Shown piece after piece: positions 2,714-26,723 of a DNA stretch of 64,000 nucleotides. A program made the translations under genes and the position numbers. Numbering within the stretch: the stretch's first letter is position 1; every line of letters starts with the position of its first letter. Origin of the DNA: Actinomycetospora endophytica (GTDB taxonomy: Bacteria; Actinomycetota; Actinomycetes; Mycobacteriales; Pseudonocardiaceae). The DNA lies in assembly GCF_021026375.1 (NCBI RefSeq), contig NZ_JAJNDB010000002.1, positions 124,001 to 188,000 on the forward strand. Direction: 5' to 3'. The notes under the pieces were generated by a model. That model worked only from the letters and a program-made list of their open reading frames with translations, was not told the origin of the DNA and did not search any database.

Positions 2714-4843
2714 GTGACCACGGCGACGGCATCACCGACGGGTGCGACGGAGCAGCCCGGACGGTCCGACCGCTACAAGTGGGTCGCGCTGTCCAACACC
2801 ACGCTCGGCGTGCTGATCGTCACGATCAACATGTCGATCCTGCTCATCGCGCTGCCCGACATCTTCCGCGGGATCAACATCGACCCGCTGGCGGCCTCGA
2901 ACATCAGCTACCTGCTGTGGCTGATCATGGGCTACCTCGTCGTGACCGCGGTCCTCGTCGTGAGCTTCGGGCGGATCGGCGACATGTACGGCCGGACCCG
3001 GATGTACAACCTGGGCTTCGCGGTCTTCACGTTCTTCTCGATCCTGCTTGCCGTCACCTGGCTGCAGGGCGACGCCGGCGCGATCTACCTGATCATCATG
3101 CGGGTGCTGCAGGGCATCGGCGGCGCGCTGCTGCTCGCGAACTCGACGGCGATCCTCACCGACGCCTTCCCCACCCACCAGCGCGGTCTGGCGCTGGGCA
3201 TCAACTCGATCGCCGCCATCGCCGGGTCCTTCATCGGGCTGGTCATCGGCGGCGTGCTCGCGCCGATCAGCTGGCACCTGGTCTTCGTGGTCTCGGTGCC
3301 GATCGGGGTGTTCGGCACGATCTGGGCGTACTTCAAGCTCAAGGAGGCAGGCGAGCGCCACGCGGCGCGGATCGACTGGTGGGGCAACATCACCTTCGCC
3401 GTCGGCCTCGTCGCGGTGCTCATGGGCATCACCTACGGCATCCAGCCCTACGGCGGGCACGTCATGGGCTGGACGAGCCCGATGGTGCTCACCCTGCTCA
3501 TCGGCGGCGTCGTCGTGCTCGCGATCTTCGCGGTGATCGAGACCAAGGTCGCCGAGCCGATGTTCCACCTGTCGCTGTTCAGGATCCGCGCGTTCACGGC
3601 CGGGAACATCGCGAGCCTGCTGGCCGCGCTCGGCCGCGGTGGTCTGCAGTTCATCCTGATCATCTGGCTGCAGGGCATCTGGCTGCCGCAGCACGGCTAC
3701 GACTACGAGTCCACGCCGCTGTGGGCCGGCATCTACATGGTCCCGCTGACGATCGGGTTCCTGGTCGCCGGACCGATCTCGGGCGTGCTGTCCGACCGCC
3801 ACGGCGCCCGCGCCTACGCGACGATCGGCATGGTCGGTGCGGCGGTGAGCTTCCTGCTGCTGAAGTTCCTGCCGGTCGACTTCTCCTACTGGGGCTTCGC
3901 GATCATCCTCGCGGTCAACGGCCTCTCGATGGGCCTGTTCTCCTCGCCGAACCGCGCCGCGATCATGAACTCGGTGCCGCCCCGGCAGCGCGGCGCCGCA
4001 GCCGGCATGACCTCGACGTTCCAGAACGCCGCGACGGTGCTCTCGATCGGCATCTTCTTCTCGATGCTGATCCTCGGCCTCTCCAGCTCGCTGCCCGCGG
4101 CCCTGCGCAGCGGACTGCTCGCACACGGCGTGCCGGCCGACGCGGCCCAGCGCATCTCCGAGCTGCCGCCGGTGAGCACCCTGTTCGCGTCGCTGCTCGG
4201 TTACAACCCGATGCAGACGCTGCTCGGACCGCAGGTGCTCGCCCAGGTGGGTCCGCAGCAGGCGGAGTACCTCACCGGGCGGAGCTTCTTCCCGTCGCTG
4301 ATCACCGGTCCGTTCGGTGACGGCCTCACCTACGCGCTGGTCTTCGCGGCCCTGTGCTGCGTGATCGCCGGGCTGGCCTCGCTGCTGCGCGGCGGCAAGT
4401 ACGCCTACCAGGAGCCGTCGTCGGCGACGGTCGTCGCGGCCGACGGCGCCGACGAGCTCGACGGTGCCTCGGTCACCGAGGCCGAGGTGGCGCCGGAGCG
4501 CACGCTCGTCGGCGCGGGTGCCGGGTTTCCTGACGGCGGTGGTGCCCACGACGGGGCCGGGGTGCGGCCGGGGCGGTTGCTCCAGGGCCGCGTCATCGGG
4601 CCGGACGCGTTGCCGGCGCCGGCCGTCCTCACGTTGGTCGACCGGGCGGGACGCCAGGCCGGTCGGGCGGTCTCCGACGACGAGGGCCACTTCCGCATCG
4701 AGCCCCCGGCCGCCGGTGAGTTCCTCGTGATCGCCACGCCGCAGGGCTCGGACGGCTCCGTGGCGCCGCGGGCCACCCAGGTGTCGGTGAGCACCGTCCC
4801 GGTCGACCTCGACCTGGTGCTCGACCGGCGCGTGCCCAGCTGA
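2714..4843 (+). CDS. MFS drug-exporter (DHA2, 14 TM) with C-terminal carboxypeptidase-regulatory-like domain
   Basis: The first ~565 residues are a proton-coupled exporter of the DHA2/EmrB type. Fourteen hydrophobic helices can be counted, and the conserved loop GRIGDMYGRTR lies between TM2 and TM3. After the last helix comes RGGKYAY, positively charged and therefore probably cytosolic, then an Ala/Glu linker. A beta-sandwich module follows (about residues 615-705): GRVIGPDALPAPAVLTLVD, then DDEGHFRIEPPAAGEFLVIATP. The module follows the PF13620 pattern (G-x-V, A-V-T-L-x-D, D-x-x-G-x-F, G-x-Y/F-x-L). EmrB-type pumps normally end soon after TM14, so the fusion is unusual. The GTG start has AAGGGGG upstream. 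The substrate is unknown. Confidence 0.88.
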   Translation: MTTATASPTGATEQPGRSDRYKWVALSNTTLGVLIVTINMSILLIALPDIFRGINIDPLAASNISYLLWLIMGYLVVTAVLVVSFGRIGDMYGRTRMYNLGFAVFTFFSILLAVTWLQGDAGAIYLIIMRVLQGIGGALLLANSTAILTDAFPTHQRGLALGINSIAAIAGSFIGLVIGGVLAPISWHLVFVVSVPIGVFGTIWAYFKLKEAGERHAARIDWWGNITFAVGLVAVLMGITYGIQPYGGHVMGWTSPMVLTLLIGGVVVLAIFAVIETKVAEPMFHLSLFRIRAFTAGNIASLLAALGRGGLQFILIIWLQGIWLPQHGYDYESTPLWAGIYMVPLTIGFLVAGPISGVLSDRHGARAYATIGMVGAAVSFLLLKFLPVDFSYWGFAIILAVNGLSMGLFSSPNRAAIMNSVPPRQRGAAAGMTSTFQNAATVLSIGIFFSMLILGLSSSLPAALRSGLLAHGVPADAAQRISELPPVSTLFASLLGYNPMQTLLGPQVLAQVGPQQAEYLTGRSFFPSLITGPFGDGLTYALVFAALCCVIAGLASLLRGGKYAYQEPSSATVVAADGADELDGASVTEAEVAPERTLVGAGAGFPDGGGAHDGAGVRPGRLLQGRVIGPDALPAPAVLTLVDRAGRQAGRAVSDDEGHFRIEPPAAGEFLVIATPQGSDGSVAPRATQVSVSTVPVDLDLVLDRRVPS

Positions 4844-4935
4844 CCAGGGGGTTCCCGAGTTCCCGGGATCTCGGTAATGATCGTCACCGGCTCAGGTAAT
4901 CGCATGTTCAAGATTTTCCGGGACCGTCGGGAGGC

Positions 4936-5976
4936 GTGACCGGATTCGATCACCCTGAACGCCGCCCCGGACTGCTCGGTGCCGTGACGGTGGTGCTGAC
5001 CGCCGCGGCGGGCGCCATCGACGTCGTCACCTACTTCGCCTTCAACCAGGTCTTCGCGTCCACGATGACCGGCAACCTCGTCCTGCTCGGCCTCGGCGTC
5101 GGGCAGGGCGAGTGGGACCAGGTCGTCGACAACGTCTGCGCGATGCTCGGCTACTGCGGCGGCCTCGTGATCGGCACGCTCGTGTGCGGGGTGGCGATGC
5201 GCCGCCTGCCCTGGCGCAACGCCGTCGGCGTCGCGCTCACCGTGGAGTTCGCGCTGCTCGTCGCCGTCGGCCTGTACTGGTGGGGTGTCGACGACGGGTC
5301 GGTGACAGCCCAGGCGAAGGTCGTCGTGCTCGTCGTCGGGGCCGGCCTCGCGATGGGCATCCAGGCGGCGGCGATGCGCTACATCGGCCCGGCCGGCACC
5401 CCGACCAGCTTCCTCTCCGGCACCGTGACCAACTGGGTCTCCAGCCTCGTCGAGTTCCACCAGCCGTTCCGCTGGAACTGGAACTCGCCGCTGCGGATCG
5501 GCGTCATGGTCGTCGCTGCGGCCGGGAACGCCGTCCTGCAGCACCAGGTCCCCGACCTCGCGTTCGCCGCGCCGATAGTGCTCGTGGCGGTCGCGATCGT
5601 GATGATGGCGCGGGTGACGCGCGCCAACCACGGTGGACTCGTCGCGGGCGAGCCGCAGTTCGCCCCGGTTCCGGTGGATGCCGGTGAGGACGATCTGGCG
5701 GGCGCCGGTCGGGTGCTGGGTCGGGTGGTCGACGCCTCCGGGGAGCCGCGGTCCGCCGCGGTCACGCTCGTCGACATGGCCGGGCGCCAGGTCCGCCGCG
5801 AGGACACCGCGGTCGACGGCGGTTTCGAGATGGAGCCCCCGGACGACGGGCAGTTCGTGCTCATCTGCACACCGCGCGGCGGAGGAGTGCCGCCGCGGGC
5901 GGTGATGGTGTCGGTGGACGGCGCCCCGGTGCGTCACGAGGTGGTGCTGGGCGAGCCCGTGCCGGCGACGGCCTGA
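4936..5976 (+). CDS. DUF1275 (YoaK-like) membrane protein fused to a carboxypeptidase-regulatory-like domain
   Basis: Residues 1-230 are a DUF1275 membrane protein. The hallmark TMTGNLVLLGLG occurs near residues 45-56, followed by about five more hydrophobic helices. The family's function is unknown, although transport is often suggested. After the last helix (VAIVMMARVTR, positive on the inner side) comes a C-terminal module, about residues 255-340: GRVVDASGEPRSAAVTLVD, then DGGFEMEPPDDGQFVLICTP. This matches the module on the preceding MFS pump closely, including the PP-x-x-G-x-F-x-x-I turn. The GTG start has GGGAGG just upstream. The gap from the MFS gene is only 92 bp, so the two may be co-transcribed. 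Confidence 0.85.
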   Translation: MTGFDHPERRPGLLGAVTVVLTAAAGAIDVVTYFAFNQVFASTMTGNLVLLGLGVGQGEWDQVVDNVCAMLGYCGGLVIGTLVCGVAMRRLPWRNAVGVALTVEFALLVAVGLYWWGVDDGSVTAQAKVVVLVVGAGLAMGIQAAAMRYIGPAGTPTSFLSGTVTNWVSSLVEFHQPFRWNWNSPLRIGVMVVAAAGNAVLQHQVPDLAFAAPIVLVAVAIVMMARVTRANHGGLVAGEPQFAPVPVDAGEDDLAGAGRVLGRVVDASGEPRSAAVTLVDMAGRQVRREDTAVDGGFEMEPPDDGQFVLICTPRGGGVPPRAVMVSVDGAPVRHEVVLGEPVPATA

Positions 5977-6320
5977 CCGGGCCGGAGATCGGAGCGCCCC
6001 GCCTCGCCTTGTCGCGGTGATTCCCCTCGCTCCGCGCGCCTTTGCCCGGCCCGTCTTGTCGCGGTGATTCCCCTCGCCCCGCGCGCCTTGTCGTTCTGAT
6101 TCACAACGACAAGGCAGAGGCGCCTCCGCGGAAGGCCGCGACAAGGCGGTGGGGCTCCTGCAGCCGGGTCGACTTCATGTTCGCTCGTGGGCGCAACAGG
6201 TCGGCCGAGTACGGCGTTCGGAGCAGCGACCTGTCCACACAGGCAGCGGGACCCGGGGTTGTCCACGTCGGCCGGCGCACCGTTCACGGTTCCGGGCTCG
6301 CCACCGCCACCGTCGACGCC
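5977..6320 (+). other. Gene-free interval holding palindromic repeats
   Basis: This 344-bp stretch has no convincing gene. Its first half carries the repeat cluster described separately (6007-6149). The second half, up to the ATG at 6321, shows no clear Shine-Dalgarno sequence. Confidence 0.6.
6007..6149. repeat. REP-like palindromic repeat cluster, left of the AbiEi-like gene
   Basis: Two near-identical 34-bp direct repeats beginning with (C/T)CTTGTCGCGGTGATTCC lie at 6007-6040 and 6054-6087. They run into a perfect 11-bp hairpin, GCCTTGTCGTT (6085-6095) and AACGACAAGGC (6105-6115), around the 9-nt loop CTGATTCAC. Twenty bases later comes CCGCGACAAGGCGG (6136-6149), the inverse of the CCTTGTCGCGG start. 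The same hairpin plus half-site occurs at 7281-7346 on the other side of the next gene, with its loop inverted. Confidence 0.85.
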
Positions 6321-7208
6321 ATGTCCTGGTTCCAGCCCGCTCCCGACGACGCCGGACTGCTCCGGCGGAGTCATCTCGTCGCCGTGCAGGATCCGGCGCT
6401 CGTCGACAAGGCGCTCCGACGCAAGCTGATCACCCCGATCCATCGCGGCATCTACAAGGACGGGGTTCCGGACTGCTGGGATCGAGCGTGGGCCGCGTGT
6501 GCCACGGTCGGCGGCTGCCGGGCCGTCGCCAGTCACCGGACGGCGGCGCGGGTCCACGAGCTCGAGGTGCCCCTCGGCGGGGCGGACGAGGTCACGATCC
6601 CGCGGGCCGAGCGTCGTCCGCACCGCGCGGAGCTGCGCTTCCACACGACGGTCCTCGCGGCGGAGGACGTCGTCGACATCGGCGGGCTGGAGCTCACGTC
6701 GATCGCCCGGACCCTCGTCGACCTGTGCCGCTGTGAGGAGCAGTTCCGGGCGGTGTGGGCCGTCGAGCGAGCTCTCGCTCGGGAGAAGGTGACGACCGAG
6801 GAGCTCGTCGAAGCGCTGCATCGGTGTCGGGGGGTCCCCGGGGTCGCCCGCGCCCGACATCGGATCGCCGCCGCGCGCCCGCTCTCCGGCTCACCGCTCG
6901 AGACCGCCGGCCGGCTGGCCCTCGTCGATGACGGACTCGCCGAGCCGGAGCTCCAGTTCCCGATCACCCGGGCCGACGGTCGGGACGCGCACGTCGACCT
7001 CGCGTACCGGGAGCAGCGGGTCGGCCTCGAGTTCGACGGGCGGTCGGAGCACGGGATGGAGAGGGCCGTGTTCGAGGACCGGGACCGGGAGAACCAGATC
7101 GTCCTCCGCGACCTCACGATCATCAGGTTCTCGTGGCACGACGTGTTCCGCCGAGGCCGGGCGTACGTCCGGACGGTGCGCCGGGCGATCGGCGAGGTCG
7201 CAGCGTGA
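6321..7208 (+). CDS. AbiEi-antitoxin-like N-terminus with DUF559/Vsr-like nuclease C-terminus
   Basis: A 295-residue protein of a type abundant in actinobacteria. Residues 1-60 resemble the AbiEi winged-helix region (LITPIHRGIYKDG). The middle (about 70-160) contains ASHRTAARVHELEV and ELTSIARTLVDLCR, as in AbiEi. The C-terminal part (about 215-295) looks like a DUF559/very-short-patch-repair fold: HVDLAYREQRVGLEFDGR, with Asp and Glu placed like nuclease metal ligands, then DRDRENQI and IIRFSWHDV. No toxin partner (AbiEii) is adjacent, so it is an orphan. The ATG at 6321 is chosen because it begins the conserved part; no good ribosome site is visible. Palindromic repeats flank it on both sides, which suggests acquisition or mobility. 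Confidence 0.75.
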   Translation: MSWFQPAPDDAGLLRRSHLVAVQDPALVDKALRRKLITPIHRGIYKDGVPDCWDRAWAACATVGGCRAVASHRTAARVHELEVPLGGADEVTIPRAERRPHRAELRFHTTVLAAEDVVDIGGLELTSIARTLVDLCRCEEQFRAVWAVERALAREKVTTEELVEALHRCRGVPGVARARHRIAAARPLSGSPLETAGRLALVDDGLAEPELQFPITRADGRDAHVDLAYREQRVGLEFDGRSEHGMERAVFEDRDRENQIVLRDLTIIRFSWHDVFRRGRAYVRTVRRAIGEVAA

Positions 7209-7280
7209 TCACGAGCGGTCCCGGTGTGGTTTCTCGGGAGGATCGGACCGTTCTGTCGCGGCCTCCGGCGGTCGCGCGAT

Positions 7281-7346
7281 CGCCTTGTCGTTGTGAATCA
7301 GAACGACAAGGCGCACCGGGTGGGGTGGGAGACCGCGACAAGGCGG
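7281..7346. repeat. REP-like palindromic repeat, right of the AbiEi-like gene
   Basis: A perfect 12-bp hairpin, CGCCTTGTCGTT (7281-7292) and AACGACAAGGCG (7302-7313), encloses GTGAATCAG, the reverse complement of the loop in the left copy. The half-site CCGCGACAAGGCGG (7333-7346) follows after about 19 bases, as on the left. The rest of the 201-bp gap between the AbiEi-like gene and the YceI gene shows nothing else. Confidence 0.85.
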
Positions 7347-7409
7347 GCCGAGCGAGGCCGGAGCGAACCGACCGGGCGCGGATGCGCACCCGGCCGGGCC
7401 GACGGACGC

Positions 7410-8231
7410 TCAGCCGGAGACCCGGACCGCCTCGATGTCGATCTCGATGCGCAGCGTGCGGCCGATCGCGAAGATGCCGGCGATCACCGACTGGTTCCAC
7501 GAGATGTCGAAGTCGTCGCGGGAGAGCTGCGTGGTGGCGGAGAAGCCGGCCCGCTCGCCGCCCCAGAGGTCGGGGCCCGCGCCGTGGTAGACGACGTCGA
7601 GCGCCACCCGGTTCCCGACGCCCTTGAGCAGGAGGTTGCCGTACATCGTCCAGTGGTCGGGGGTGTGCCCGACGATCTCCGTGGAGTCGAAGCTGATGTC
7701 GGCGAACCGCGCCACGTCGAGGAAGTCGGGGGCACGCAGGTGCTCGTCCCGGCGCTCGTCGTCGGTGTCCACGCTCGAGGCCTCGATCGCCGAGGAGACC
7801 CGCGTCGAGGCGAGGTCGGCGCCCATGTCGATGTGCCCGGTGAACCGGCGCAGCCGACCGTGGACCTTGGTGATCCCGAGGTGGAACGCCGACGCCGAGA
7901 TGCGCGAGTGCACCGGGTCGATGTCCCAGCGGCCCGGTGCCGGCAGCTCCAGGGCGCCGGTCCGGGTCAGCACGACCCGCCCGAGCGCCCCGAACGCGGG
8001 CCCTCCGACAGGACGGGCGGCCGGGGTGTGGCCGACGGCGGAGGTGATCACGGTGCACGGTCCGGCGGGCAGGCCGTCGAGGACGAACCCGCCGTCGTCG
8101 GCGACGGGGGTGCCGCCGATCTGCTGGCCCGCCGCGTCGATGACGGTGACGACGGCGAAGGGCACCGGCCAGCCGTCGCTGGTGACGGCCGTGCCGGTGA
8201 CCCGCTGGACGTCGTGCTGCGTCGCCGTCAC
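7410..8231 (-). CDS. YceI-family protein with N-terminal carboxypeptidase-regulatory-like domain
   Basis: A 273-residue protein. Residues about 8-90 form the same beta-sandwich module found in neighbouring proteins (GTAVTSDGWPVPFAVVTVID, then DDGGFVLDGLPAGPCTVI). Residues 95-273 are a YceI domain: GRWDIDPVHSRISASAFHLG, TDDERRDEHLRAPDFLDVAR and FDISWNQSVIAG are family landmarks. YceI domains form a lipocalin-like barrel that can bind isoprenoid lipids. No signal peptide is visible, so the protein is probably cytosolic, unlike the exported E. coli member. Its ATG overlaps the stop of the upstream three-module gene by 4 bp, so the two are translated together. Confidence 0.85.
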   Translation of the reverse strand: MTATQHDVQRVTGTAVTSDGWPVPFAVVTVIDAAGQQIGGTPVADDGGFVLDGLPAGPCTVITSAVGHTPAARPVGGPAFGALGRVVLTRTGALELPAPGRWDIDPVHSRISASAFHLGITKVHGRLRRFTGHIDMGADLASTRVSSAIEASSVDTDDERRDEHLRAPDFLDVARFADISFDSTEIVGHTPDHWTMYGNLLLKGVGNRVALDVVYHGAGPDLWGGERAGFSATTQLSRDDFDISWNQSVIAGIFAIGRTLRIEIDIEAVRVSG

Positions 8232-9211
8232 CGGCGCCCACCGTCGGCGTCGAAGCCGAGGTCTCCCGCGCCCGGGTGCTCGGCCGACGGCCCGGAGGCG
8301 TGCCGGCCGTTGTGCCCGTTGGTGTAGGCGCCCGCGGGCACCGCGTCGCTGCCGAAGTCCTCCGCGCCGAAGCCGCGCGAGAAGGTGTGGTCGTCCTCGT
8401 AGGCCGGGCCGTCGTCGACCGGGCCGAGTGCCGGCGGGGTCAGGGTGAGGGTCACGTCGGAGGGCTGCCCGGCGCCGACCTCGATCTCACTCGCGACCGG
8501 GGCGTAGCCGCTCGCGGTGATCGTGTAGGTGCCGGGGGCGACCTCGGGGAAGACGAACGTGCCGTCGTCACCGGTGACCGCGGCGCCCACGACGTTGCCG
8601 TCGGAGCCGACCAGGGTGGCCAGCGCCTCGCCGACCGGGCGGCCGCCGGACGCGGAGCGCACGACGCCGGACAGGCGCAGCTGGGTGGCCAGCGCGATGT
8701 CGCGGGTGACGCGGCCCTCGGCCGGGATCTGGACGGTCTCGGCGATCGGCGTGGTGTCCGGGGCGGCGGCGGTGAGCGTGTAGGAGCCCTCGTCGAGGTC
8801 GGCGAAGCGGTACGACCCGTCCGCGTTCGACCGGGCCACTGCGACGACGGTGCCGCGCACGTCGGTGAGCGTGAGGACCACGCCCGCCGTCCCGGCGACC
8901 CCACCCTCGCGCCCGGTCCCGACGGTGCCCTCGAGGGTCGCGCCGCCGCCGGAGAGCCCGACGTCGTGGCGCAGCGGGCGGTCGGACACCGCGACGAGGG
9001 ACGCCTTGGGCTGATGGGTCGACGACGAGCAGATCACCAGGTAGGTGCCGCCCGTCGACGGCGCCAGCTGGTAGTGGCCCCCGTCGTCGGCCACTGCGCG
9101 ATCGAGCTGGTCGCCGGCGAGATCGCAGAGGGTCAGCGCGGCCCCGGGGAGCGGTGCACCGTCCCCTCGCGTCACCCGACCGAAGATCATGATCGGCTGC
9201 TGTCCGTCCAC
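8228..9211 (-). CDS. Free three-repeat carboxypeptidase-regulatory-like protein
   Basis: A 327-residue protein made almost only of three beta-sandwich modules: about 6-90 (GRVTRGDGAPLPGAALTLCD), 91-180 (ADGSYRFADLDEGSYTLTAA) and 181-260 (DDGTFVFPEVAPGTYTITAS). An acidic, His/Gly-rich tail follows. The modules match, in order, the three at the C-terminus of the exporter at 23943-26723: module 1 shares the YLVI/YVVL and PKASLVAVS/PHAELVALD turns, and module 3 shares LTASGYAPV/ITASGYAPV. No signal peptide or membrane helix is seen, so it is likely cytosolic. The GTG at 9211 is chosen over an upstream ATG because GGAGG precedes it and the conserved part starts at once. It heads an operon with yceI. 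Confidence 0.82.
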   Translation of the reverse strand: MDGQQPIMIFGRVTRGDGAPLPGAALTLCDLAGDQLDRAVADDGGHYQLAPSTGGTYLVICSSSTHQPKASLVAVSDRPLRHDVGLSGGGATLEGTVGTGREGGVAGTAGVVLTLTDVRGTVVAVARSNADGSYRFADLDEGSYTLTAAAPDTTPIAETVQIPAEGRVTRDIALATQLRLSGVVRSASGGRPVGEALATLVGSDGNVVGAAVTGDDGTFVFPEVAPGTYTITASGYAPVASEIEVGAGQPSDVTLTLTPPALGPVDDGPAYEDDHTFSRGFGAEDFGSDAVPAGAYTNGHNGRHASGPSAEHPGAGDLGFDADGGRR

Positions 9212-9586
9212 CGTCGCACTCCTCCGCTGTGCCTCGTGGCCCGCGTCCCCGTCGTGAGGTGACCGGCCTGACCAGGTGCCACCGGGTCCCACCGCGGTGC
9301 ACCCGCGAGCCGCGCCGGCCCTTCACTCATCCGACGTCCGAGCGGCCCGCTGATGATCCGGCTCCTCCGACGATGCCCCGTCCGGGACACCCCCGGCTCC
9401 GGTCGGTCGCTTCCCGCTCGGACCCACTGTGCTCGCCCACGCGGGGTGGCGGCCACCCGGACCGTGCCGAACCACCCTCATTTCACTTGAATAGTACAAG
9501 CATTTTGCCGGGGCCGCCCGCACGGGTGGTTCGAACCACGATGATCGACGTGGCGTCGTCCGGACCCCGGGAGGACGCTGATCCCC
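9212..9586. promoter_or_regulatory. Divergent promoter region between module operon and acyl-CoA dehydrogenase
   Basis: A 375-bp gap without a convincing gene. Around 9480-9510 is an unusually AT-rich patch (TTTCACTTGAATAGTACAAG, then CATTTTGCC) containing TTGAAT and TAGTAC, plausible promoter elements for the acyl-CoA dehydrogenase. AGCGGAGGAG on the minus strand is the ribosome site of the module gene. Confidence 0.5.
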
Positions 9587-10882
9587 ATGGCCGCGCCGAC
9601 CGAGTCCCTCGCCCCCGACCGCGCCGGAGCGCCGGCCGGCTCGCCGTTCGACGACCTCCCGCGCCCGCACCTGGAGCTCGACCCGAACACCGCGCACGTC
9701 GCCGACTTCTACTCCTACGCGGAGCTGCTCACCGGCGCCGAGCGCGACCTGCTCCGGCGGGTGCGCGCCTATCTCGCCAGCGACGTCGCGCCGGTGGTCG
9801 ACGAGGCGTGGGCGAACGACGCGTTCCCCACGCAGCTGATCGACGGGTTCGCCGGGCTCGACCTCGCGGGGCTGCCCTACGGCCTCTCCGCCTGGTCGGA
9901 CGAGCCCGCGCGGCGGGTGCTCATGGGGTTCGTCCACGCCGAGGTCGCGCGCGTGGACGCCTCGACGAACAGCTTCCTCGGGGTGCACAGCGGGCTCGCG
10001 ATGGGCTCGATCGACGCCTGCGGCACGCCGGAGCAGCGCGAGCGCTGGCTGCCGCCGATGGCGCGCATGGAGACCATCGGGGCATTCGGGCTGACCGAGC
10101 CGCACGGCGGGTCCGACGTCGCGGGCGGCATGGAGACCACCGCCCGGCGCGACGGCGACGAGTGGATCCTCGACGGCCACAAGCGCTGGATCGGCAACGG
10201 AACCTTCGCCGACGTGCTCGTGATCTGGGCGCGCGATGTGTCCGACGGGGCCGACGGCAAGGCCGTCCGCGGATTCGTCGTCGACCGGGAGACGCCCGGC
10301 GTGAGCACCGCCAAGATCGAGGGCAAGACGGCGCTGCGGATCACCCAGAACGCCGACATCACCCTCGACGGGGTGCGGGTCGGTGGGGACCGGCTGCTCT
10401 CGGGCGGGAAGGGGACGTTCGCCGACGCCGGGGCGGTGCTGCGCCGGACGCGGGGCAACGCGTCGTGGGCGTGCACCGGGGTGCAGATGGCCTCCTACGA
10501 GCTCGCCCTGACCTACGCCAAGGAGCGCGAGCAGTTCGGGCGCCCGATCGCCGGGTTCCAGATGATCCAGGACGCCCTGGTCCAGATGCTCGGGAACACC
10601 ACGGCCTCGATCGGCATGGCCGCCCGCAACGCCCAGCTGATCGACGACGGCGGCGGGTCGGACGCGCACTCGGCGCTGGCGAAGCAGTTCTGCGCCGACC
10701 GGATGCGCGAGACGGTCGCGCTCGGCCGCCAGGTGGTCGGCGGCAACGGGATCATCGTCGGCAACGGCATCGCCCGGTACTTCGCCGACGCCGAGGCCCT
10801 CTACTCCTACGAGGGCACCCGCGAGATGAATACGCTGATCGTCGGCAAGGCCGTCACCGGGCACAGCGCCTTCGTGCACTGA
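9587..10882 (+). CDS. Acyl-CoA dehydrogenase, glutaryl-CoA dehydrogenase-like
   Basis: A 431-residue FAD flavoprotein that would introduce a double bond into an acyl-CoA and pass electrons to ETF. Landmarks are GAFGLTEPHGGSDV (about residues 165-178, flavin/substrate loop), the WIGNGTFAD segment and YAKEREQFGRPIAGFQMIQ (about 305-323). Near the C-terminus, YEGTREMNTLIVGKAVTG has the Glu placed as in the glutaryl-CoA dehydrogenase type, with the YEGT motif. The substrate cannot be fixed from sequence. GGGAGG lies 12 bases before the ATG. The next gene starts 16 bp after the stop, so the two likely form an operon. Confidence 0.87.
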   Translation: MAAPTESLAPDRAGAPAGSPFDDLPRPHLELDPNTAHVADFYSYAELLTGAERDLLRRVRAYLASDVAPVVDEAWANDAFPTQLIDGFAGLDLAGLPYGLSAWSDEPARRVLMGFVHAEVARVDASTNSFLGVHSGLAMGSIDACGTPEQRERWLPPMARMETIGAFGLTEPHGGSDVAGGMETTARRDGDEWILDGHKRWIGNGTFADVLVIWARDVSDGADGKAVRGFVVDRETPGVSTAKIEGKTALRITQNADITLDGVRVGGDRLLSGGKGTFADAGAVLRRTRGNASWACTGVQMASYELALTYAKEREQFGRPIAGFQMIQDALVQMLGNTTASIGMAARNAQLIDDGGGSDAHSALAKQFCADRMRETVALGRQVVGGNGIIVGNGIARYFADAEALYSYEGTREMNTLIVGKAVTGHSAFVH

Positions 10883-10898
10883 TCGCCGAGGAGGCACC

Positions 10899-12236: not shown

Positions 12237-12237
12237 A

Positions 12238-12911: not shown

Positions 12912-12916
12912 GGGAC

Positions 12917-17088: not shown

Positions 17089-17256
17089 ATGACCCAGACG
17101 CCGATTTACGATGAAGTCAGGCGTTCCTTCGGCCGCATCGACCGGAGCCTCGAGCGCCGTTCCTTCCGGCGCGAGGACTCCGCGAACAGCGAGCGGGGCT
17201 CCCGTCCCGTCATGTTGCGCGGTTCCGGCGGACGTCATCGACGGTCGGGGGAGTGA
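17089..17256 (+). CDS. Small 55-residue ORF overlapping the next gene; possible 5' part of a frameshifted gene
   Basis: Encodes MTQTPIYDEVRRSFGRIDRS and a further Arg-rich stretch. Codons to about 17215 have the high third-position GC expected of real coding sequence here, and the start sits 8 bp after a TAGGGT -10 element, which supports leaderless expression. The larger overlapping frame has poorer codon use in this stretch. So either this is a separate basic peptide, or it is the true N-terminus of the next gene with a one-base shift near 17220-17250, where a GGGGG run occurs. No homologue was recognised. Confidence 0.5.
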   Translation: MTQTPIYDEVRRSFGRIDRSLERRSFRREDSANSERGSRPVMLRGSGGRHRRSGE

Positions 17257-18346: not shown

Positions 18347-18393
18347 GCGCGACCGATCGGGGCGCGCTCGCTCCCCGAGGAGGTCCTCCCGCC

Positions 18394-19454: not shown

Positions 19455-19483
19455 GGACGCAGGATCGTGGCAGGCTCCCGGGC

Positions 19484-20539
19484 GTGCGCATCGGGATGGG
19501 TCTGAACTACAGCGGCGGCTTCGAGGAGACGATGGCCGAGCTGGCCGAGCACGAGAAGGCCGGGCTCGACATCGTCTTCGTCCCCGAGGCCTACAGCTAC
19601 GACGCGGTGAGCCAGCTCGGGTTCATCGCCGCCCGGACGGAGCGGGTCCAGATCGCCTCGGGGATCCTGCAGATCTACACCCGGACGCCGACGCTGACGG
19701 CCATGACCGCGGCCGGTCTGGACTACGTCTCCGGCGGCCGGTTCACGCTCGGGCTCGGGGCGTCCGGCCCGCAGGTCATCGAGGGCTTCCACGGGGTGCG
19801 CTACGACGCCCCGCTCGGCCGCACCCGCGAGATCATCGACATCTGTCGGCAGGTGTGGCGCCGCGAGCGCCTCGAGCACCAGGGGAAGAACTACACGATC
19901 CCGCTGCCGCCGGAGCAGGGCACCGGCCTGGGCAAGCCCCTCAAACTCATCAACCACCCGGTGCGCGAGTCGATCCCGATCGTGGTCGCCGCCCTGGGTC
20001 CGAAGAACGTGACGCTGGTCGCCGAGAAGGCCGACGGCTGGCAGCCGATCTTCTTCGTGCCGGAGAAGGCGCAGGAGGTCTGGGGCGACTCCCTGGCGGC
20101 AGGTCTCGCCAAGCGCGAGGCCGGCCTGAAGCCGTTGGAGGTCTACCTGCAGACCTCGTTCTGCATCACCGAGGACGAGGCCACCGCCACGGCCATGCTC
20201 GACGGGATGCGCCACTTCGTCGCGCTCTACGTCGGCGGCATGGGGGCCCGCGGCCAGAACTTCTACAACGACGTCGCCTGCCGGTACGGCTTCGTGGACG
20301 AGGCGAAGTCCATCCAGGACCTCTACCTGGACGGCAGGAAGGACGAGGCCGCCGCGGCCGTCCCGGAGGAGCTGCTCAAGGCCATCTCGCTGATCGGCCC
20401 GCGGTCCTACGTCGCCGAGCGCATGGCCGCGTTCGCCGAGGCCGGCGTCACGACCCTCAACCTCACCCCGCTCGGCGGCACCCCGGCCGACCGGGTGGCG
20501 CTGACCGGTGCCGCGAAGGAGATCGCCGCCGGGCTGTAG
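19484..20539 (+). CDS. LLM-class F420-dependent oxidoreductase
   Basis: A 351-residue TIM-barrel protein of the luciferase-like family, subtype resembling mycobacterial Rv3520c. It opens with GMGLNYSGGFEE, then IVFVPEAYSYDAVSQLGFIA, and shows RFTLGLGASGPQVIEGFHGV (about residues 86-105). The late IVVAALGPKN and GVTTLNLTPLGG segments also fit. These enzymes typically use coenzyme F420, common in this lineage, for hydride transfer. The GTG start lies shortly after a CAGGCT -10-like element, so it may be leaderless. MaoC and thiolase genes follow in the same direction at 59 and 33 bp gaps, suggesting a three-gene unit. Confidence 0.87.
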   Translation: MRIGMGLNYSGGFEETMAELAEHEKAGLDIVFVPEAYSYDAVSQLGFIAARTERVQIASGILQIYTRTPTLTAMTAAGLDYVSGGRFTLGLGASGPQVIEGFHGVRYDAPLGRTREIIDICRQVWRRERLEHQGKNYTIPLPPEQGTGLGKPLKLINHPVRESIPIVVAALGPKNVTLVAEKADGWQPIFFVPEKAQEVWGDSLAAGLAKREAGLKPLEVYLQTSFCITEDEATATAMLDGMRHFVALYVGGMGARGQNFYNDVACRYGFVDEAKSIQDLYLDGRKDEAAAAVPEELLKAISLIGPRSYVAERMAAFAEAGVTTLNLTPLGGTPADRVALTGAAKEIAAGL

Positions 20540-20598
20540 GGGCACGTCCCGGCCGGGACACGGGCCGGCCGGGGAGGACCGATCGAGGAGGCGCGACG

Positions 20599-21051
20599 AT
20601 GCGGACGTTCCAGGGCGTGGAGGAACTGCGGGCGGTGGTCGGGGAGGACCTCGGCACCAGCTCGTGGATCACGGTCGACCAGAAGCGGATCGACCTGTTC
20701 GCCGACGCCACCGACGACCACCAGTGGATCCACGTCGACCCGGAGCGGGCGAAGGGCGGGCCGTTCGGCGGGACCGTCGCGCACGGGTTCCTGACGGTCG
20801 CCCTCATCCCCGCCTTCGGGTGGGACACGTTCGCCGTCGAGGGCGTCTCGATGACGGTCAACTACGGCATGAACAAGGTCCGCTTCCCCGCGCCGGTTCC
20901 GGTCGGGAGCCGCGTGCGCGGGCACTCGAAGTTGCTCGACGTCACCGACGTGAGCGGTGGCGTCCAGGCGACGATCGGGGGCACGGTGGAGATCGAGGAC
21001 CAGCCGAAGCCTGCCTGTGTCGCCGAGGTCGTCCTGCGTTATCTATTCTGA
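20599..21051 (+). CDS. MaoC-family dehydratase (R-specific enoyl-CoA hydratase-like)
   Basis: A 150-residue hot-dog-fold hydratase that would add water to a trans-2-enoyl-CoA. The catalytic region LFADATDDHQWIHVDPERAK (about residues 33-52) carries the Asp and His of the hydratase-2 motif (D-x-x-x-x-H). GGTVAHGFLTVALIPAF and MNKVRFPAPVPVGSRVRG follow. GATCGAGGAGG supplies the ribosome site before the ATG. It lies between the LLM oxidoreductase and thiolase genes, consistent with a degradative CoA-ester pathway of unknown substrate. Confidence 0.87.
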   Translation: MRTFQGVEELRAVVGEDLGTSSWITVDQKRIDLFADATDDHQWIHVDPERAKGGPFGGTVAHGFLTVALIPAFGWDTFAVEGVSMTVNYGMNKVRFPAPVPVGSRVRGHSKLLDVTDVSGGVQATIGGTVEIEDQPKPACVAEVVLRYLF

Positions 21052-21084
21052 GTTCGAAAATAGCTCTCCCCGGAAGGACCTGCC

Positions 21085-22296
21085 GTGGTTGACGCCGTCG
21101 TCTGTGAGCCGATCCGCACCCCCGTCGGGGGGTTCGGCGGGGCCTTGCGGGACGTCCCGGTGCAGGAGCTGGGCGCGACGGTGATCCGCGAGCTCGTCGA
21201 GCGCACCGGCGTCACCGCGGACCAGATCGACGACGTGGTCTTCGGGCACTGCTACCCGACGATGGACGCCCCGGCGATCGGGCGCGTCGCGGCGCTGGAC
21301 GCGGGCCTGGACGTCACGGTGCCCGGGCTGCAGATCGACCGGCGCTGCGGCTCCGGGCTCCAGGCCGTGCTCTACGCGGCGATGTCGGTGGCCACCGGCG
21401 GGGCGTCGCTGGTGCTGGCCGGCGGGGCGGAGTCGATGTCCGGGGCGTCGTACTTCACCGACGCGGTCCGCTGGGGCACCAAGGCGGGCGGGTTCGAGAT
21501 GAAGGACTCGCTCGCGCAGGGCCGAGTGCTGGCCGGCGGCGTGAACCACCCGGTCAAGGGCGGGATGATCGAGACGGCGGAGAACGTCCGGAAGCGCTAC
21601 TCGATCCCGCGCGACGAGCAGGACCGGCTCGCGGTGCGCTCGCACGAGAAGGCCACCGCGGCGGTCAAGGAGGGTCGCTACGCCGACGAGCTGGTGCCGG
21701 TGACGATCCACGGCCGCAAGGGCGACACCGTGGTGGATCAGGACGAGCACATCCGGCCGGACGCGTCGCTGGAGTCGCTGGCGAAGCTGCGCCCGATCCT
21801 GGGCAAGGCCGACCCCGACGCGACGGTCACCGCCGGCAACGCCTCGGGCCAGAACGACGGCGCCGCGGTCTGCCTGGTGACCACTCCGGAGAAGGCCGCC
21901 GAGCTCGGGCTGCGCCCGCTGGCGCGACTGGTGTCCTGGGGGCTCGGCGGGGTCGGCCCGGAGATCATGGGGATCGGGCCGGTCCCCGCGACCGAGCAGG
22001 CGCTGGGCCGGGCGGGCCTGTCGCTGGCGGACCTCGACGTGATCGAGCTCAACGAGGCGTTCGCGGCGCAGGCGCTCGGGGTCGGCCGCGAGTGGGGGAT
22101 CGACCTGATCTCCGACGAGCGGGTCAACCCGAACGGCTCGGGGATCTCGCTCGGCCACCCTGTCGGCGCCACCGGGGTCCGGATCCTCACGACGATGCTG
22201 CGCGAGATGGACCGCCGCGGGTCGCGCTACGGGCTCGAGACGATGTGCATCGGCGGCGGTCAGGGTCTCGCGGCGATCTTCGAGCGGCTGGCCTGA
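21085..22296 (+). CDS. Acetyl-CoA C-acyltransferase (thiolase)
   Basis: A 403-residue thiolase, which would cleave a 3-ketoacyl-CoA with CoA. The nucleophilic Cys88 lies in QIDRRCGSGLQA. The two C-terminal catalytic motifs are NPNGSGISLGHPVGATG (His, about 350) and MCIGGGQG (Cys, about 390). The NEAFAAQALG motif is also present. GGAAGGA precedes the GTG start. It ends the LLM-MaoC-thiolase unit and is followed by paired hairpins that separate it from the convergent enoyl-CoA hydratase. Confidence 0.9.
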   Translation: MVDAVVCEPIRTPVGGFGGALRDVPVQELGATVIRELVERTGVTADQIDDVVFGHCYPTMDAPAIGRVAALDAGLDVTVPGLQIDRRCGSGLQAVLYAAMSVATGGASLVLAGGAESMSGASYFTDAVRWGTKAGGFEMKDSLAQGRVLAGGVNHPVKGGMIETAENVRKRYSIPRDEQDRLAVRSHEKATAAVKEGRYADELVPVTIHGRKGDTVVDQDEHIRPDASLESLAKLRPILGKADPDATVTAGNASGQNDGAAVCLVTTPEKAAELGLRPLARLVSWGLGGVGPEIMGIGPVPATEQALGRAGLSLADLDVIELNEAFAAQALGVGREWGIDLISDERVNPNGSGISLGHPVGATGVRILTTMLREMDRRGSRYGLETMCIGGGQGLAAIFERLA

Positions 22297-22301
22297 GTTC
22301 G

Positions 22302-22352
22302 TCAGCGATGGTCCATCGCTGACATCTGACGTCAGGATGAACCCTTCCTGAC
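22302..22352. terminator. Two consecutive hairpins between convergent thiolase and hydratase genes
   Basis: A 21-nt near-perfect palindrome, TCAGCGATGG-T-CCATCGCTGA (22302-22322), is followed by a 7-bp hairpin, GTCAGGA (22331-22337) and TCCTGAC (22346-22352). The first is so symmetric that it could also be an operator. Between converging genes a terminator is more likely. The rest of the 154-bp gap has only GCCGCCCG repeats. Confidence 0.55.
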
Positions 22353-22450
22353 ATCGGCCGCCCGGCCGCCCGGCCGCCATGATCATGAGCACGGGGGGCA
22401 GGGCTCGGCGGCGGTGAACCTGCCTGGTGTGCTCCTCGTCGAGAAGGGAA

Positions 22451-23266
22451 TCAGCGACCCTGCCAGCGCGGCGGCCGCTTCTCCCGGGCCGCCGCGGCAC
22501 CCTCCTGGGCGTCCTCGGTCGCCCCGGCCACGCGCCGCATCGTCTCGCCGAAGCGGATCGCGTCGGTCTGCGACATCTCCGGGCCCCGGCGCGCGACCTC
22601 CTTGATCGCCCGCTGCGCCAGGGGTGCCCCGGCGAGCAGCCGGTCGGCGAGGCGCCCGGCGGCGGGCAGCAGGTCGTCGTGCTCGACCACCTGCAGCGCC
22701 AGCCCGATCTCCTTCGCCCGCGCCGCCGACACCGTCTCCCCGGTCAGTAGCAGCTCCATCGCCGGCTGCCAGCCGATCCGCTGGGGCAGCCGCAGCGCGC
22801 CCACGATCGTCGGGACCCCGAGCTTGACCTCCGGGTAGCCGAACGTCGCGCGGTCGGAGGCGACGACGAAGTCGCACCACGTCACGAGGGTCAGGCCGTA
22901 GCCCAGGCAGAGCCCGTTCACCGCGGCGATCACCGGCTTGTGGAGCTCCCAGCCGGACTCGAACGAGTTCACCGTCGGGCGCTCCCAGAACGATCCCGGG
23001 AACTCGCCCGCCGGGTTGCGCTCCGAGCCGAAGTCCGCGCCGGCGCTGAACGCCCGCCCCGCGCCGGTCACGATGCCGACCCAGGCCTCGTCGTCGGCGC
23101 TCAGGCGGGCGAACGCCTCGTTGAGGCCGTCGCGCATCGCGCCGTCGATGGCGTTGAGCTTGTCGGGCCGGTCGTAGGTGATGGTGGCGACGTGGCCGGT
23201 GCGCTCGTAGCGGACGCGGTCGGCGAAGCGCACACGCACGTCGGGTCCGGGGGCCTCGTCGCTCAT
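22451..23266 (-). CDS. Enoyl-CoA hydratase/isomerase (crotonase family)
   Basis: A 271-residue crotonase-fold protein. VATITYDRPDKLNAID (about residues 26-41) is the first CoA-binding strand. GAGRAFSAGADFGSERN and AAVNGLCLGYGLTLVTWCD (about 113-131) form the oxyanion hole. RATFGYPEVKLGVPTIVGAL fits the family's second catalytic segment. The hydratase glutamate positions are partly replaced (GLCLGYGL), so isomerase or another crotonase activity is possible. The ATG at 23266 is chosen because it begins a normal-length protein. It diverges from the marR-MFS operon. Confidence 0.82.
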   Translation of the reverse strand: MSDEAPGPDVRVRFADRVRYERTGHVATITYDRPDKLNAIDGAMRDGLNEAFARLSADDEAWVGIVTGAGRAFSAGADFGSERNPAGEFPGSFWERPTVNSFESGWELHKPVIAAVNGLCLGYGLTLVTWCDFVVASDRATFGYPEVKLGVPTIVGALRLPQRIGWQPAMELLLTGETVSAARAKEIGLALQVVEHDDLLPAAGRLADRLLAGAPLAQRAIKEVARRGPEMSQTDAIRFGETMRRVAGATEDAQEGAAAAREKRPPRWQGR

Positions 23267-23321
23267 GGGCGCGCACGCTAGCGCCGTCCCCTGGGAGGGG
23301 GTGACTCCCGGATCACATCCC

Positions 23322-23339
23322 CCGAGCGGGTACCCCCGC
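23322..23339 (+). promoter_or_regulatory. Upstream box shared with the first MFS locus
   Basis: CCGAGCGGGTACCCCCGC, nearly identical to 2652-2669, lies 62-79 bp before the marR start. Downstream, TTGTAC occurs twice, at 23368-23373 and 23385-23390, 17 bp apart, and could be MarR half-sites or part of the promoter. Confidence 0.45.
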
Positions 23340-23400
23340 TGGCAGAGCGTGCGGGTCGGGTGCATAGTTGTACCGACCAAGCGATTGTACGGAGCACGCA

Positions 23401-23946
23401 ATGAATGCAGCAGTCGGTGCTCGACCCGGACCCCCGATCCCCGAGGGCACCGACGAGCAGTGGGTGACCTCGGACCGGATCGGCCTCCAGCTCATCCGGC
23501 TCATCCGCCTCATCGAGCGCAAGCGGGTGTCCAAGGTCGGCAAGGACGGCAACGGCGTCGAGCGCGCCGCGTACGTCCTGCTGGCCCGGCTCGTCATCGA
23601 CGGGCCGCACCGCTCGAACGCGCTCGCCGAGGCCGTGCACTCCGACCCCTCCACGGTCAGCAGGCAGATCGCGGCGCTCGTCCGGATCGGGTACGTCGAG
23701 CGACGCCCCGACCCCGCCGACGGCCGCGCGTGCCTGCTCGCCGCCACCCAGGAGGGCCACCGGGTCTTCGAGGAGAACCGCGACCTCCGCAACCGCGAGA
23801 TCAGCCGGATCACGAGCGACTGGGACGAGGCCGACCGCGAGCGGCTCGTCGAACTGATGGACCGCTTCACCACCGCGCTCGAGGCCAACCACCCCGAAAC
23901 CCACGACGACGTCCCCGCCCCCCAGGGCGCGGAGGAGGACCGATGA
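23401..23946 (+). CDS. MarR-family transcriptional regulator
   Basis: A 181-residue winged-helix repressor. GPHRSNALAEAVHSDPSTVS (about residues 75-94) is the recognition helix-turn-helix, and GYVERRPDPADGRACLLAAT (about 101-120) is the wing, with the D-x-R-D/G-R motif. The ATG at 23401 is chosen over an in-frame ATG 33 bp upstream because GGAG is well placed and the conserved region follows. Its stop overlaps the exporter's ATG (ATGA), so it almost surely controls that pump and its own synthesis. TTGTAC direct repeats in the promoter are candidate operator half-sites. Confidence 0.9.
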   Translation: MNAAVGARPGPPIPEGTDEQWVTSDRIGLQLIRLIRLIERKRVSKVGKDGNGVERAAYVLLARLVIDGPHRSNALAEAVHSDPSTVSRQIAALVRIGYVERRPDPADGRACLLAATQEGHRVFEENRDLRNREISRITSDWDEADRERLVELMDRFTTALEANHPETHDDVPAPQGAEEDR

Positions 23947-26723
23947 CCAGCACGACCGCGTCGAGCACCGCGGCGGTCGCTACGACGGCCGGCGCGAGAC
24001 CCGCGCCGACCACCGGCGGATTCACCCACCGCCAGATCCTGACGATCCTGTCCGGGCTGATGCTCGGCATGTTCCTGGCCGCGCTCGACCAGAACATCGT
24101 CTCCACGTCGATCCGCACCATCGCGGACGACCTGCACGGCCTGAACCTGCAGGCCTGGGCCACAACGGCCTACCTGATCACGGCGACCATCTCGACGCCG
24201 CTCTACGGCAAGCTCTCGGACCTCTACGGCCGTAAGCCGTTCTTCCTGTTCGCGATCGGCGTCTTCGTCATCGGCTCCGTGCTCTGCACGATCTCGACGT
24301 CGATGTACGAGCTGGCGGGATTCCGCGCCCTGCAGGGGATCGGCGCCGGCGGTCTCATGAGCCTCGCGCTCACGATCATCGGTGACATCGTCCCGCCCCG
24401 GGAGCGCGCCCGGTACCAGGGCTACTTCCTCGCGGTGTTCGGGACGTCGAGCGTCATCGGCCCGGTCGTCGGCGGCTTCTTCGCCGGCACCACCTCGATC
24501 ATCGGCATCGACGGCTGGCGCTGGGTCTTCCTGGTGAACGTCCCGATCGGGATCCTCGCGTTCGCCGTCGTGTGGCGGGTGCTGAACCTGCCCCACACCC
24601 GTCGGGAGCGCCGCATCGACTGGCCCGGCGCCGTCGCGCTGGCCATCGCGCTCGTGCCGCTGCTGATCGTGGCAGAGCAGGGCCAGAGCTGGGGCTGGGG
24701 CTCGACGGACGCGATCCTCTGCTACGTGATCGGCATCGTCGGCCTGATCGGCTTCGTGATCGCGGAGCGCGCCTACGGCGACGACGCCCTGCTGCCGCTG
24801 CGCCTGTTCCGCAACGGCGTGTTCTCCCTGACGACTGTCATCGCGGTCATCACCGGCATCGGCATGTTCGGCGGCATCGCGATCGTTCCGCAGTACCTGC
24901 AGATCGTGAACGGGTCGACGCCCACGCAGGCCGGGCTGCAGATGATCCCGCTGGTCGGCGGGCTGATGGTGGCCTCGATCATCTCCGGTCAGCTCACCAG
25001 CCGCACCGGGCGATACAAGGTCTTCCCGGTGATCGGCCTCGGCCTGATGACCGTCGGCATGCTGCTCTTCCACTTCCTGCTGCACGCCGACACCCCGTAC
25101 TGGGAGATCGCGATCCTGATGGTCGTGTTCGGCCTCGGGCTCGGGAACTGCATGCAGACCCTCGTCCTCGCGGTGCAGAACGCCGTGCCCGCCTCGGACA
25201 TGGGCGTCGCCACCGCCTCGGCCACGTTCTTCCGGCAGATGGGCGGCACGCTCGGCGTCTCGGTGTTCCTGTCGATCCTGTTCTCGACGGTCGGCGGCAA
25301 CATCATCTCGGCGTTCCGGAGCGCCGCGGGCACCCCGTCGTTCCAGGCCGCCCTGGCCGACCCGGCGGTCGCCTCGAACCCGGTCAACGCCGCCGCGGTG
25401 AACCCGGCGACCGGCGCCGCGCAGGTCGTCCAGGACTCCTCGATCCTGCAGCGGATGGACCCGCGCCTGGCCGAGCCGTTCTTCGCCGGCTTCGCACAGT
25501 CGATGGACCTGGTGTTCCTCGTCGCCGCCTGCGTGATCTTCGTGGGCTTCGTGCTCATCTGGTTCCTCAAGGAGGTCCCGCTGCGCACGACGTCGGGTAT
25601 CCAGGCCCGCCAGGCCGAGGAGTCCGGCCCCGGCGCGGGCCCCGGCTCGGTCGACGCCGCCGCCGAGGTCACCGGCCCCGGCCGGGGCGCGATGGACGTC
25701 CCGGTCTCGGCGCCCCCGGTGGGCGCGGCCGGTGCCGCGGGCGGCGACCGCCTGGTCCGGCTCGACGGCCGGCGTCCGACGCCGGGTCCGCGCCCGGCCG
25801 GGCACGGCCGGCACGAGGCGCCCGAGCACCACGGTGACTCGGTCGTCCTCGGGACGCTCGTCGACGCCGCCGACCAGCCGGCCGGCGAGACGGCCGACGA
25901 CCGCTTCGCCCGGCCGACCGACGGCGCGCTCGTCGGGGTACCGATGGCGCTGCACGCGCTCGACGGCACCGTCGTCGACCGCACGTTCTCCGCGGCCGAC
26001 GGGTCGTTCCGGCTGCACGCGCCCGCCCCGGGCAGCTACGTCGTCCTCGCGACGCCAGGGGTGTTCCGGCCGCACGCCGAGCTCGTCGCCCTGGACGGGG
26101 TGCCGGTGCGGCGCCGGTTCGGGCTGCGCCGGTCGACCCCGGTCGGCGGGGCGGTGCGCGACGCAGCCGACATCCCGGTCGTCGGCGCGACGGTGACCGT
26201 CACCGACCCCGGCGGCGGGGTGCGGGCGGTGCGCCGCACCGGCGCCGACGGGACCTGGGAGTGCCCGGAGCTCGAGCCGGGGACCTACACCGTCGCGGTG
26301 CTGGCCCCCGGACGTGAGCCGGTGGCCGAGCGACTCGTCGTCGCCGAGCCGACGCCCGCCGGACGGCGCACCACGCGCCACGACGTGCGGGTGCCGGTCG
26401 CGCGCTTCGGCGTGCGGGGCCAGGTGCTCTCGTCGTCGGGCCGGGCGGTGGCCGAGTCGCTCGTCGTGCTCATGGGCGCGGACGGCCGGGTCGTCGCGTC
26501 GACCGTGACCGACACCGCCGGGCACTTCGCGGTCACCGACCTCGCCGAGGGGCGCTACCTGCTCACCGCGAGCGGCTACGCCCCGGTGACCGCGCAGGTC
26601 ACCGTCGCCCGCGGCAGGCACGAGGCCGTGGACCTCGTCGTCGAGCCGCCGCAGCCGGCGTCGTCGGCCCCGGTCCCGGACGCCCTCGACGCCGAGACGT
26701 ACCCGCTGCCGGTCACCCGCTGA
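23943..26723 (+). CDS. MFS drug exporter (DHA2, 14 TM) with three C-terminal carboxypeptidase-regulatory-like modules
   Basis: At 926 residues this is much longer than normal DHA2 pumps (about 500). Residues 25-550 hold 14 helices with typical motifs: MFLAALDQNIVSTSIRTIAD in helix 1 (acidic LDxTIVN-like), GKLSDLYGRKPFFL (motif A) and GYFLAVFGTSSVIGPVVGG (motif C, antiporter). After a Gly/Pro/His linker come three beta-sandwich modules, about 645-740, 742-825 and 828-905. The third carries YLLTASGYAPVTAQVTVARG. Positive residues after TM14 (FLKEVPLRTT) put the tail in the cytosol. The modules match the free protein at 8228-9211 in order. The start overlaps marR by 4 bp. Confidence 0.88.
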   Translation: MTSTTASSTAAVATTAGARPAPTTGGFTHRQILTILSGLMLGMFLAALDQNIVSTSIRTIADDLHGLNLQAWATTAYLITATISTPLYGKLSDLYGRKPFFLFAIGVFVIGSVLCTISTSMYELAGFRALQGIGAGGLMSLALTIIGDIVPPRERARYQGYFLAVFGTSSVIGPVVGGFFAGTTSIIGIDGWRWVFLVNVPIGILAFAVVWRVLNLPHTRRERRIDWPGAVALAIALVPLLIVAEQGQSWGWGSTDAILCYVIGIVGLIGFVIAERAYGDDALLPLRLFRNGVFSLTTVIAVITGIGMFGGIAIVPQYLQIVNGSTPTQAGLQMIPLVGGLMVASIISGQLTSRTGRYKVFPVIGLGLMTVGMLLFHFLLHADTPYWEIAILMVVFGLGLGNCMQTLVLAVQNAVPASDMGVATASATFFRQMGGTLGVSVFLSILFSTVGGNIISAFRSAAGTPSFQAALADPAVASNPVNAAAVNPATGAAQVVQDSSILQRMDPRLAEPFFAGFAQSMDLVFLVAACVIFVGFVLIWFLKEVPLRTTSGIQARQAEESGPGAGPGSVDAAAEVTGPGRGAMDVPVSAPPVGAAGAAGGDRLVRLDGRRPTPGPRPAGHGRHEAPEHHGDSVVLGTLVDAADQPAGETADDRFARPTDGALVGVPMALHALDGTVVDRTFSAADGSFRLHAPAPGSYVVLATPGVFRPHAELVALDGVPVRRRFGLRRSTPVGGAVRDAADIPVVGATVTVTDPGGGVRAVRRTGADGTWECPELEPGTYTVAVLAPGREPVAERLVVAEPTPAGRRTTRHDVRVPVARFGVRGQVLSSSGRAVAESLVVLMGADGRVVASTVTDTAGHFAVTDLAEGRYLLTASGYAPVTAQVTVARGRHEAVDLVVEPPQPASSAPVPDALDAETYPLPVTR

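Follow-up and report, generated by a model that had tools for sequence, protein, structure and literature searches.

The window analyzed here, a 64,000-nucleotide stretch of the Actinomycetospora endophytica genome, raises the question of why one small module should recur in proteins as different as two exporters, a DUF1275 membrane protein, a YceI lipocalin, and a free protein, and on which side of the membrane it lies. A sequence-only reading had counted nine copies in five proteins, namely one in MFS1, one in the DUF1275 protein, one in the YceI protein, three in the free protein, and three in MFS2, and all nine are confirmed as CarboxypepD_reg-type modules (PF13620). Module types A, B, and C follow one another in collinear arrays in both the free protein and the tail of MFS2 (Table 1). 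Six of the nine copies pass the curated PF13620 cut-off, two fall below it, and one is absent from the listing; these last three are tied in by pairwise Z and by an independent profile trained on A modules from other genera. The results support one module common to the exporters, YceI, and DUF1275. The beta-sandwich fold is seen in the model of the YceI module, which has strands at 8–87 and resembles carboxypeptidase D and CnaB2 in fold, and the AlphaFold model of MFS2 contains three beta modules. CnaB-type isopeptide bonds use a conserved Lys with Asn/Asp and an acidic residue; in an alignment of 13 tails no invariant or almost invariant position is a Lys, so there is no sign of such bonds.

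MFS2 scores 252.1 bits with the DHA2 model TIGR00711 (cut-off 230.2), and MFS1 scores 173.4 bits with the DHA2 model, under the cut-off, and has 14 hydropathy peaks. By sequence likeness, both are candidate DHA2-type, proton-coupled drug efflux pumps, and because their NCBIfam matches to named resistance pumps are far under the cut-offs, no drug can be named for either. The DUF1275 protein reaches 93.6 bits with its family profile (cut-off 25.4), and the YceI protein 128 bits with the Pfam profile (cut-off 23.7). The structure model of the YceI protein (pLDDT 88.7) comprises the module and a lipocalin barrel, the nearest folds being PA0423 (TM-score to target 0.92), E. coli YceI, and TT1927b. 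Its gene begins with GTG, and this start shares 4 bases with the stop of the free-protein gene.

Table 1. Module-bearing proteins, individual modules, and the MarR-family gene in the window.
Feature	Position	Strand	Profile match
MFS1, DHA2-like exporter (14 TM), single module at the C-terminus	2714..4843	+	Pfam MFS_1 1.1e-37; PF13620 2.5e-4
MFS1 module, type A	4577..4825	+	
DUF1275 membrane protein, single module at the C-terminus	4936..5976	+	Pfam DUF1275 1.8e-26
DUF1275 module, type A	5710..5949	+	
Module-YceI, N-terminal module then lipocalin barrel	7410..8231	-	Pfam YceI 3.8e-37
YceI module	8007..8204	-	PF13620 42.6 bits
Free three-module protein, A-B-C	8228..9292	-	PF13620 3.7e-34, three stretches
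Free protein module A	8951..9193	-	
Free protein module B	8690..8938	-	PF13620 39.7 bits
Free protein module C	8438..8674	-	PF13620 53.6 bits
MarR-family regulator, overlaps MFS2 start	23368..23946	+	Pfam MarR 5.7e-11
MFS2, DHA2 exporter with three modules after a disordered linker	23943..26723	+	MFS_1 1.4e-53
MFS2 module A, carries insertion	25839..26129	+	
MFS2 module B	26142..26351	+	PF13620 54.7 bits
MFS2 module C	26412..26642	+	PF13620 51.8 bits

The window also holds a pair of 114-nt inverted repeats (6037–6150 and 7247–7360, 78% complementary) that flank a lone gene (6144–7208) with a weak REase_MTES_1575 match, under the cut-off. Each arm carries the perfect palindrome GCCTTGTCGTTnTGAnTCAnAACGACAAGGC, and with up to three mismatches there are nine such sites in the genome and none in the reversed control. 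The repeats bearing it are a dispersed palindromic repeat or a small mobile unit.

Among CarboxypepD_reg (transthyretin-like) domains, the modules form a separate subfamily in Actinomycetes, with a tree split of their own. In a 106-row tree built on 92 columns, in which many inner and most deep forks are weak, one branch with split support of 99/95 sets all exporter modules, together with those of YceI and types B and C, apart from other PF13620 modules, and the exporter-module clade has MFS, FUSC, MMPL, DUF1275, and ABC-2-like proteins as hosts. Group medians with the A profile are 49–78 bits for the modules of single-module MFS, MMPL, FUSC, DUF1275, ABC-2-like, and YceI proteins, against 18.6 bits for 37 other PF13620 modules and 12.9 bits for DUF1416, with ranges that overlap (top other module 48.1; lowest YceI 21.6, lowest DUF1275 25.0, and one FUSC 37.4). 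The 37 controls come from loci L217–L220, L222, and L236, and may include modules that are not extracellular; control locus L220 has six predicted helices. A second module-YceI fusion family, Y2 (L239 and L247–L252), has five members in the tree, all outside the exporter-module clade, so the CarboxypepD_reg domain may have joined YceI twice.

Two short motifs differ among the module types. A G-x-Q motif after the second strand is found in 98/100 A modules, 95/96 YceI modules, and 0/100 C modules, and the loose pattern also matches 14/100 B modules and 8/37 other modules. A DG[W/F] motif is present in 93/96 YceI modules (a set that includes the window copy at 8007–8204), 25/100 A modules, 0/14 DUF1275 modules, and 0/14 MFS1 modules; it is a candidate partner-specific contact.

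Judged by charge pattern, by the topology of the protein families, and by the lack of signal peptides, the modules very probably lie in the cytosol, the DUF1275 module less surely so. Around the 14 hydropathy peaks of MFS1, K+R count 2–6 near even loops and 0–1 near odd loops. The AlphaFold model of MFS2 (pLDDT 84.2, 67-sequence alignment) has 14 long helices, after which residues 565–630 (pLDDT < 50) form a 66-residue disordered linker leading to the modules. Its membrane part matches EmrB, EfpA, and QacA in Foldseek, and the termini of these pumps are cytosolic. Across 112 proteins, the tether between pump and module is Ala/Gly/Pro-rich and disordered, with a median of 75 residues (range 9–129). 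No signal peptide was seen in the window YceI protein, and among 96 module-YceI proteins none has a hydrophobic stretch ahead of the module and one has a Tat-like motif. A cytosolic place of the modules is strongly indicated for MFS1, MFS2, and YceI by topology and lack of a signal peptide, and is weaker for DUF1275, whose topology is unsure: TCDB treats DUF1275 as sharing the six-TMS MFS unit (PMC7778945), and SMART gave seven TM for a distant member (PMC3167825). Positive charge after the last helix, on which the earlier reading had partly based its claim of a cytosolic place for all nine copies, was rejected as a general topology marker, being above zero in just 17/112.

All five proteins of the earlier reading stand as carriers, and its scope was too narrow, as the module is found genome-wide and in many genera. 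In the same genome, it is carried by 13 of about 90 MFS genes (102 MFS_1 matches, adjacent pieces joined by eye), by one of four DUF1275 genes, and by one of four FUSC genes; of the YceI genes listed, one has the module and the other, a 206-residue frame, lacks it. Of the 22 PF13620 matches in this genome, 8 fall in window proteins, 11 in other MFS proteins, 2 in dioxygenase-type proteins, and 1 in a DUF1416 protein. For the 11 other MFS proteins, Pfam reports MFS_1 in all and PF13620 in 10, the match in L021 appearing in the genome search only. The FUSC exporter L203 was added by window profile A2 (E 3e-6); Pfam names FUSC_2 in it, and not PF13620 at 0.001. One of the MFS proteins (L016:1581-3929, minus strand) is a triple fusion in which a universal-stress (Usp) domain precedes the module. 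PF13620 also matches intradiol dioxygenases (L018 and L233 by Pfam, L022 by likeness only) and DUF1416 proteins, which were excluded as separate families.

In a complete genome of the same genus (G003), there are nine further module exporters, of which Pfam identifies eight as MFS and one as FUSC. FUSC fusions also occur in Kutzneria and in G022, and a 6–7 TM protein with the module occurs in G022, G007, and G011, Pfam naming ABC-2 in the G022 protein only. Genus g46, likely Streptomyces since its MFS-ABC loci match Streptomyces DNA best, at 78–91%, includes four genomes with MMPL fusions, in which the module ends the exporter, and eight with single-module MFS fusions, these genomes having been picked from matches rather than as a census. 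In a separate case (L216:2327-5809, minus strand), a three-module MFS protein is fused to a DUF1622 membrane domain.

MarR, an MFS exporter with an A-B-C tail, and module-YceI make up the core unit, which is encoded as an operon. A profile of the 13 A-B-C tails, scanned against 84,980 named genomes, gave at least 575 relatives in 595 candidate stretches, and the best 80 of these were counted as loci. All 80 encode MFS-ABC, which is partly a consequence of the tail query; MarR is present in 58, and MarR, MFS-ABC, and module-YceI occur together in 55. Lack of co-occurrence had been set beforehand as a possible refutation of the earlier reading, and module-YceI is found in 70 of these best 80 loci, with no YceI lacking the module among them. 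In two of the ten loci without YceI (L098 and L167), the sequence ends <100 bases from the MFS gene. The hosts of the 80 are mostly Streptomyces, and include Actinomadura, Planotetraspora, Sphaerisporangium, Kutzneria, and others.

Co-occurrence also holds at the genus level. Among 42 genera (61 genomes), 12 have both the exporter and this type of module-YceI, 3 (G028, G032, and G046, one of these genomes being 74% complete) have the exporter only, none has module-YceI only, and 27 have neither (Fisher p 4e-8, ancestry ignored). Each exporter-positive genus was confirmed by a fetched locus with MFS and modules; the exporter threshold of E <= 1e-10 was chosen after inspection of the list and makes four weaker-match genomes negative. 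When Y2 is counted too, the table becomes 12/3/2/25 (p 3e-6). A separate search matched 22/396 genomes, seven of them outside the class, and this figure overstates the operon because the five out-of-class loci L217–L220 and L222 hold other architectures, with no MFS or YceI match (G308 and G401 are also out-of-class).

In the genus of the window the unit is split, and the A-B-C array exists also as a free protein overlapping module-yceI. Among 17 same-genus relatives, in counts that include short contigs and broken frames, the free A-B-C protein is present in all 17, module-YceI beside it in 15, MFS1-module nearby in 14, and DUF1275-module nearby in 11. Matches the size of MFS2 (1061–1183 residues) are listed in 16/17, and the two fetched are MFS-ABC. 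In a Kutzneria locus (L092/L100), which is plausibly an intermediate, MFS-ABC, free A-B-C, and module-YceI are neighbors.

Our leading explanation, to which we give slightly less than an even chance, is that this distinct cytosolic subfamily is an exporter-docking module, with the MarR-linked DHA2 exporter and module-YceI as its core. The cytosolic side is strongly indicated; docking, cargo delivery, bridging, and the kind of cargo are what we infer from the arrangement. The YceI barrel, in the cytosol or at the inner leaflet, would pick up a hydrophobic compound (a drug, polyprenoid, or lipid), and its module would dock onto the exporter tail, where three modules sit on a flexible C-terminal tether, raising the substrate concentration at the inner mouth of the pump. 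MarR may release the exporter-YceI set when the compound is present. The free A-B-C array could bridge YceI to several pumps, as suggested by its place beside module-yceI and by the single modules on MFS, FUSC, and DUF1275 proteins. The nature of the cargo is suggested by relatives. BcnA, a protein with the YceI fold, was solved with octaprenyl pyrophosphate and is a sequestering agent for rifampin, polymyxin B, norfloxacin, and ceftazidime (PMC5350466); by analogy, the window YceI barrel may hold a hydrophobic ligand. In sulfonamide degraders, yceI adjoins sad monooxygenase genes, and a role in uptake has been suggested (PMC6868719). A broader form of the docking model, in which a lipocalin carrier feeds MFS, FUSC, MMPL, ABC-2-like, and DUF1275 pumps through the common module with the free array as a bridge, is possible but on balance rather unlikely.

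A mirror-tree test on 77 operons does not single out the modules as contacts, since partial correlations with A, B, and C were higher for the YceI barrel (0.30, 0.28, and 0.46) than for the YceI module (0.16, 0.20, and 0.02). The three genera with module exporters but no module-YceI, and the lack of a module-YceI in the few kb fetched around most single-module exporters, also weigh against docking. The modules may instead bind each other and cluster exporters, with or without YceI, in membrane patches, the free array acting as a cross-linker and no cargo being transferred. The recurrence of the module across many exporters within a single genome, the collinear arrays, and the constancy of the free protein in same-genus relatives (17/17) all fit such a scaffold, which alone would leave the lipocalin partner in 70 of the best 80 of at least 575 loci unexplained, and we consider it unlikely. 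Somewhat less likely still is the earlier idea that the module senses a ligand in the cytosol and gates its exporter. Transthyretin-like folds are able to bind small ligands and the nearby MarR gene suggests chemical induction, but docking would be more natural than gating given the long disordered linker (66 to about 75 residues) and a module shared by several unrelated exporter families. We regard as quite improbable that the modules merely stabilize or mark proteins for turnover or localization, unconnected to YceI function: most single-module exporters have no module-YceI within the few kb fetched around them, as would be expected, whereas YceI co-occurs with the module at both locus and genus level. 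That these are ordinary extracellular domains with misread topology is very improbable, as the 14 helices and loop charges of the MFS proteins, their kinship to EmrB, EfpA, and QacA, and the 96/96 module-YceI proteins lacking a hydrophobic stretch outweigh the unsure DUF1275 topology and the mostly secreted or surface origin of PF13620 domains.

Efflux pumps are usually thought to take substrates from the membrane or cytosol unaided. If the docking model is correct, one module would tie a carrier of hydrophobic ligands to many pumps as a common supply line, which would be relevant to the many hydrophobic antibiotics that Streptomyces and its relatives produce and withstand, and would hint at what cytosolic YceI and DUF1275, both little-understood families, do. 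The domain, the lipocalin, and the pumps are of known kinds, and module fusions themselves would show in domain databases; the literature searched gave no account of their combination in the cytosol or of the operon. This full-text search, with subscription papers and preprints outside its scope, gave no description of the module with MFS, YceI, or MmpL among the papers listed. One match instead mentions a terpene synthase with an N-terminal module (PMC6007079).

Several known systems share parts of this arrangement. The CarboxypepD_reg or transthyretin-like domains of carboxypeptidase D and N tails, SdrD/CnaB repeats, and NOMO belong to the same Pfam family, and the window modules have profile matches to NOMO2, SdrD, and carboxypeptidases. 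Those domains are extracellular or face the ER lumen, whereas the window modules are on cytosolic exporter tails and have their own tree split. DUF1416 proteins (L017, L235, and L242) are probably cytosolic and carry a related domain, but they are small, have no exporter context, and form a separate clade. The window pumps share the 14-TM core with DHA2 exporters (EmrB, QacA, EfpA, and OtrB/Tcr3-like models), MFS2 with a family score above the cut-off and MFS1 with one below it, and differ by the module tail. Likewise, the window YceI shares its barrel fold and family with BcnA, PA0423, TT1927b, and E. coli YceI, but an N-terminal module replaces the signal peptide and the gene is in an operon with a module exporter; BcnA is secreted (PMC5350466). 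Another parallel is BcnA-LcoA, in which the lipocalin is genetically tied to a membrane partner, cytochrome b561, and fused to it in some alpha-proteobacteria (PMC9113575). That pair works on the periplasmic side with a redox partner, whereas the module system would work on the cytosolic side with an exporter. In the broader form of the docking model, the delivery system would be to the cytosolic face what periplasmic adaptors are to Gram-negative pumps.
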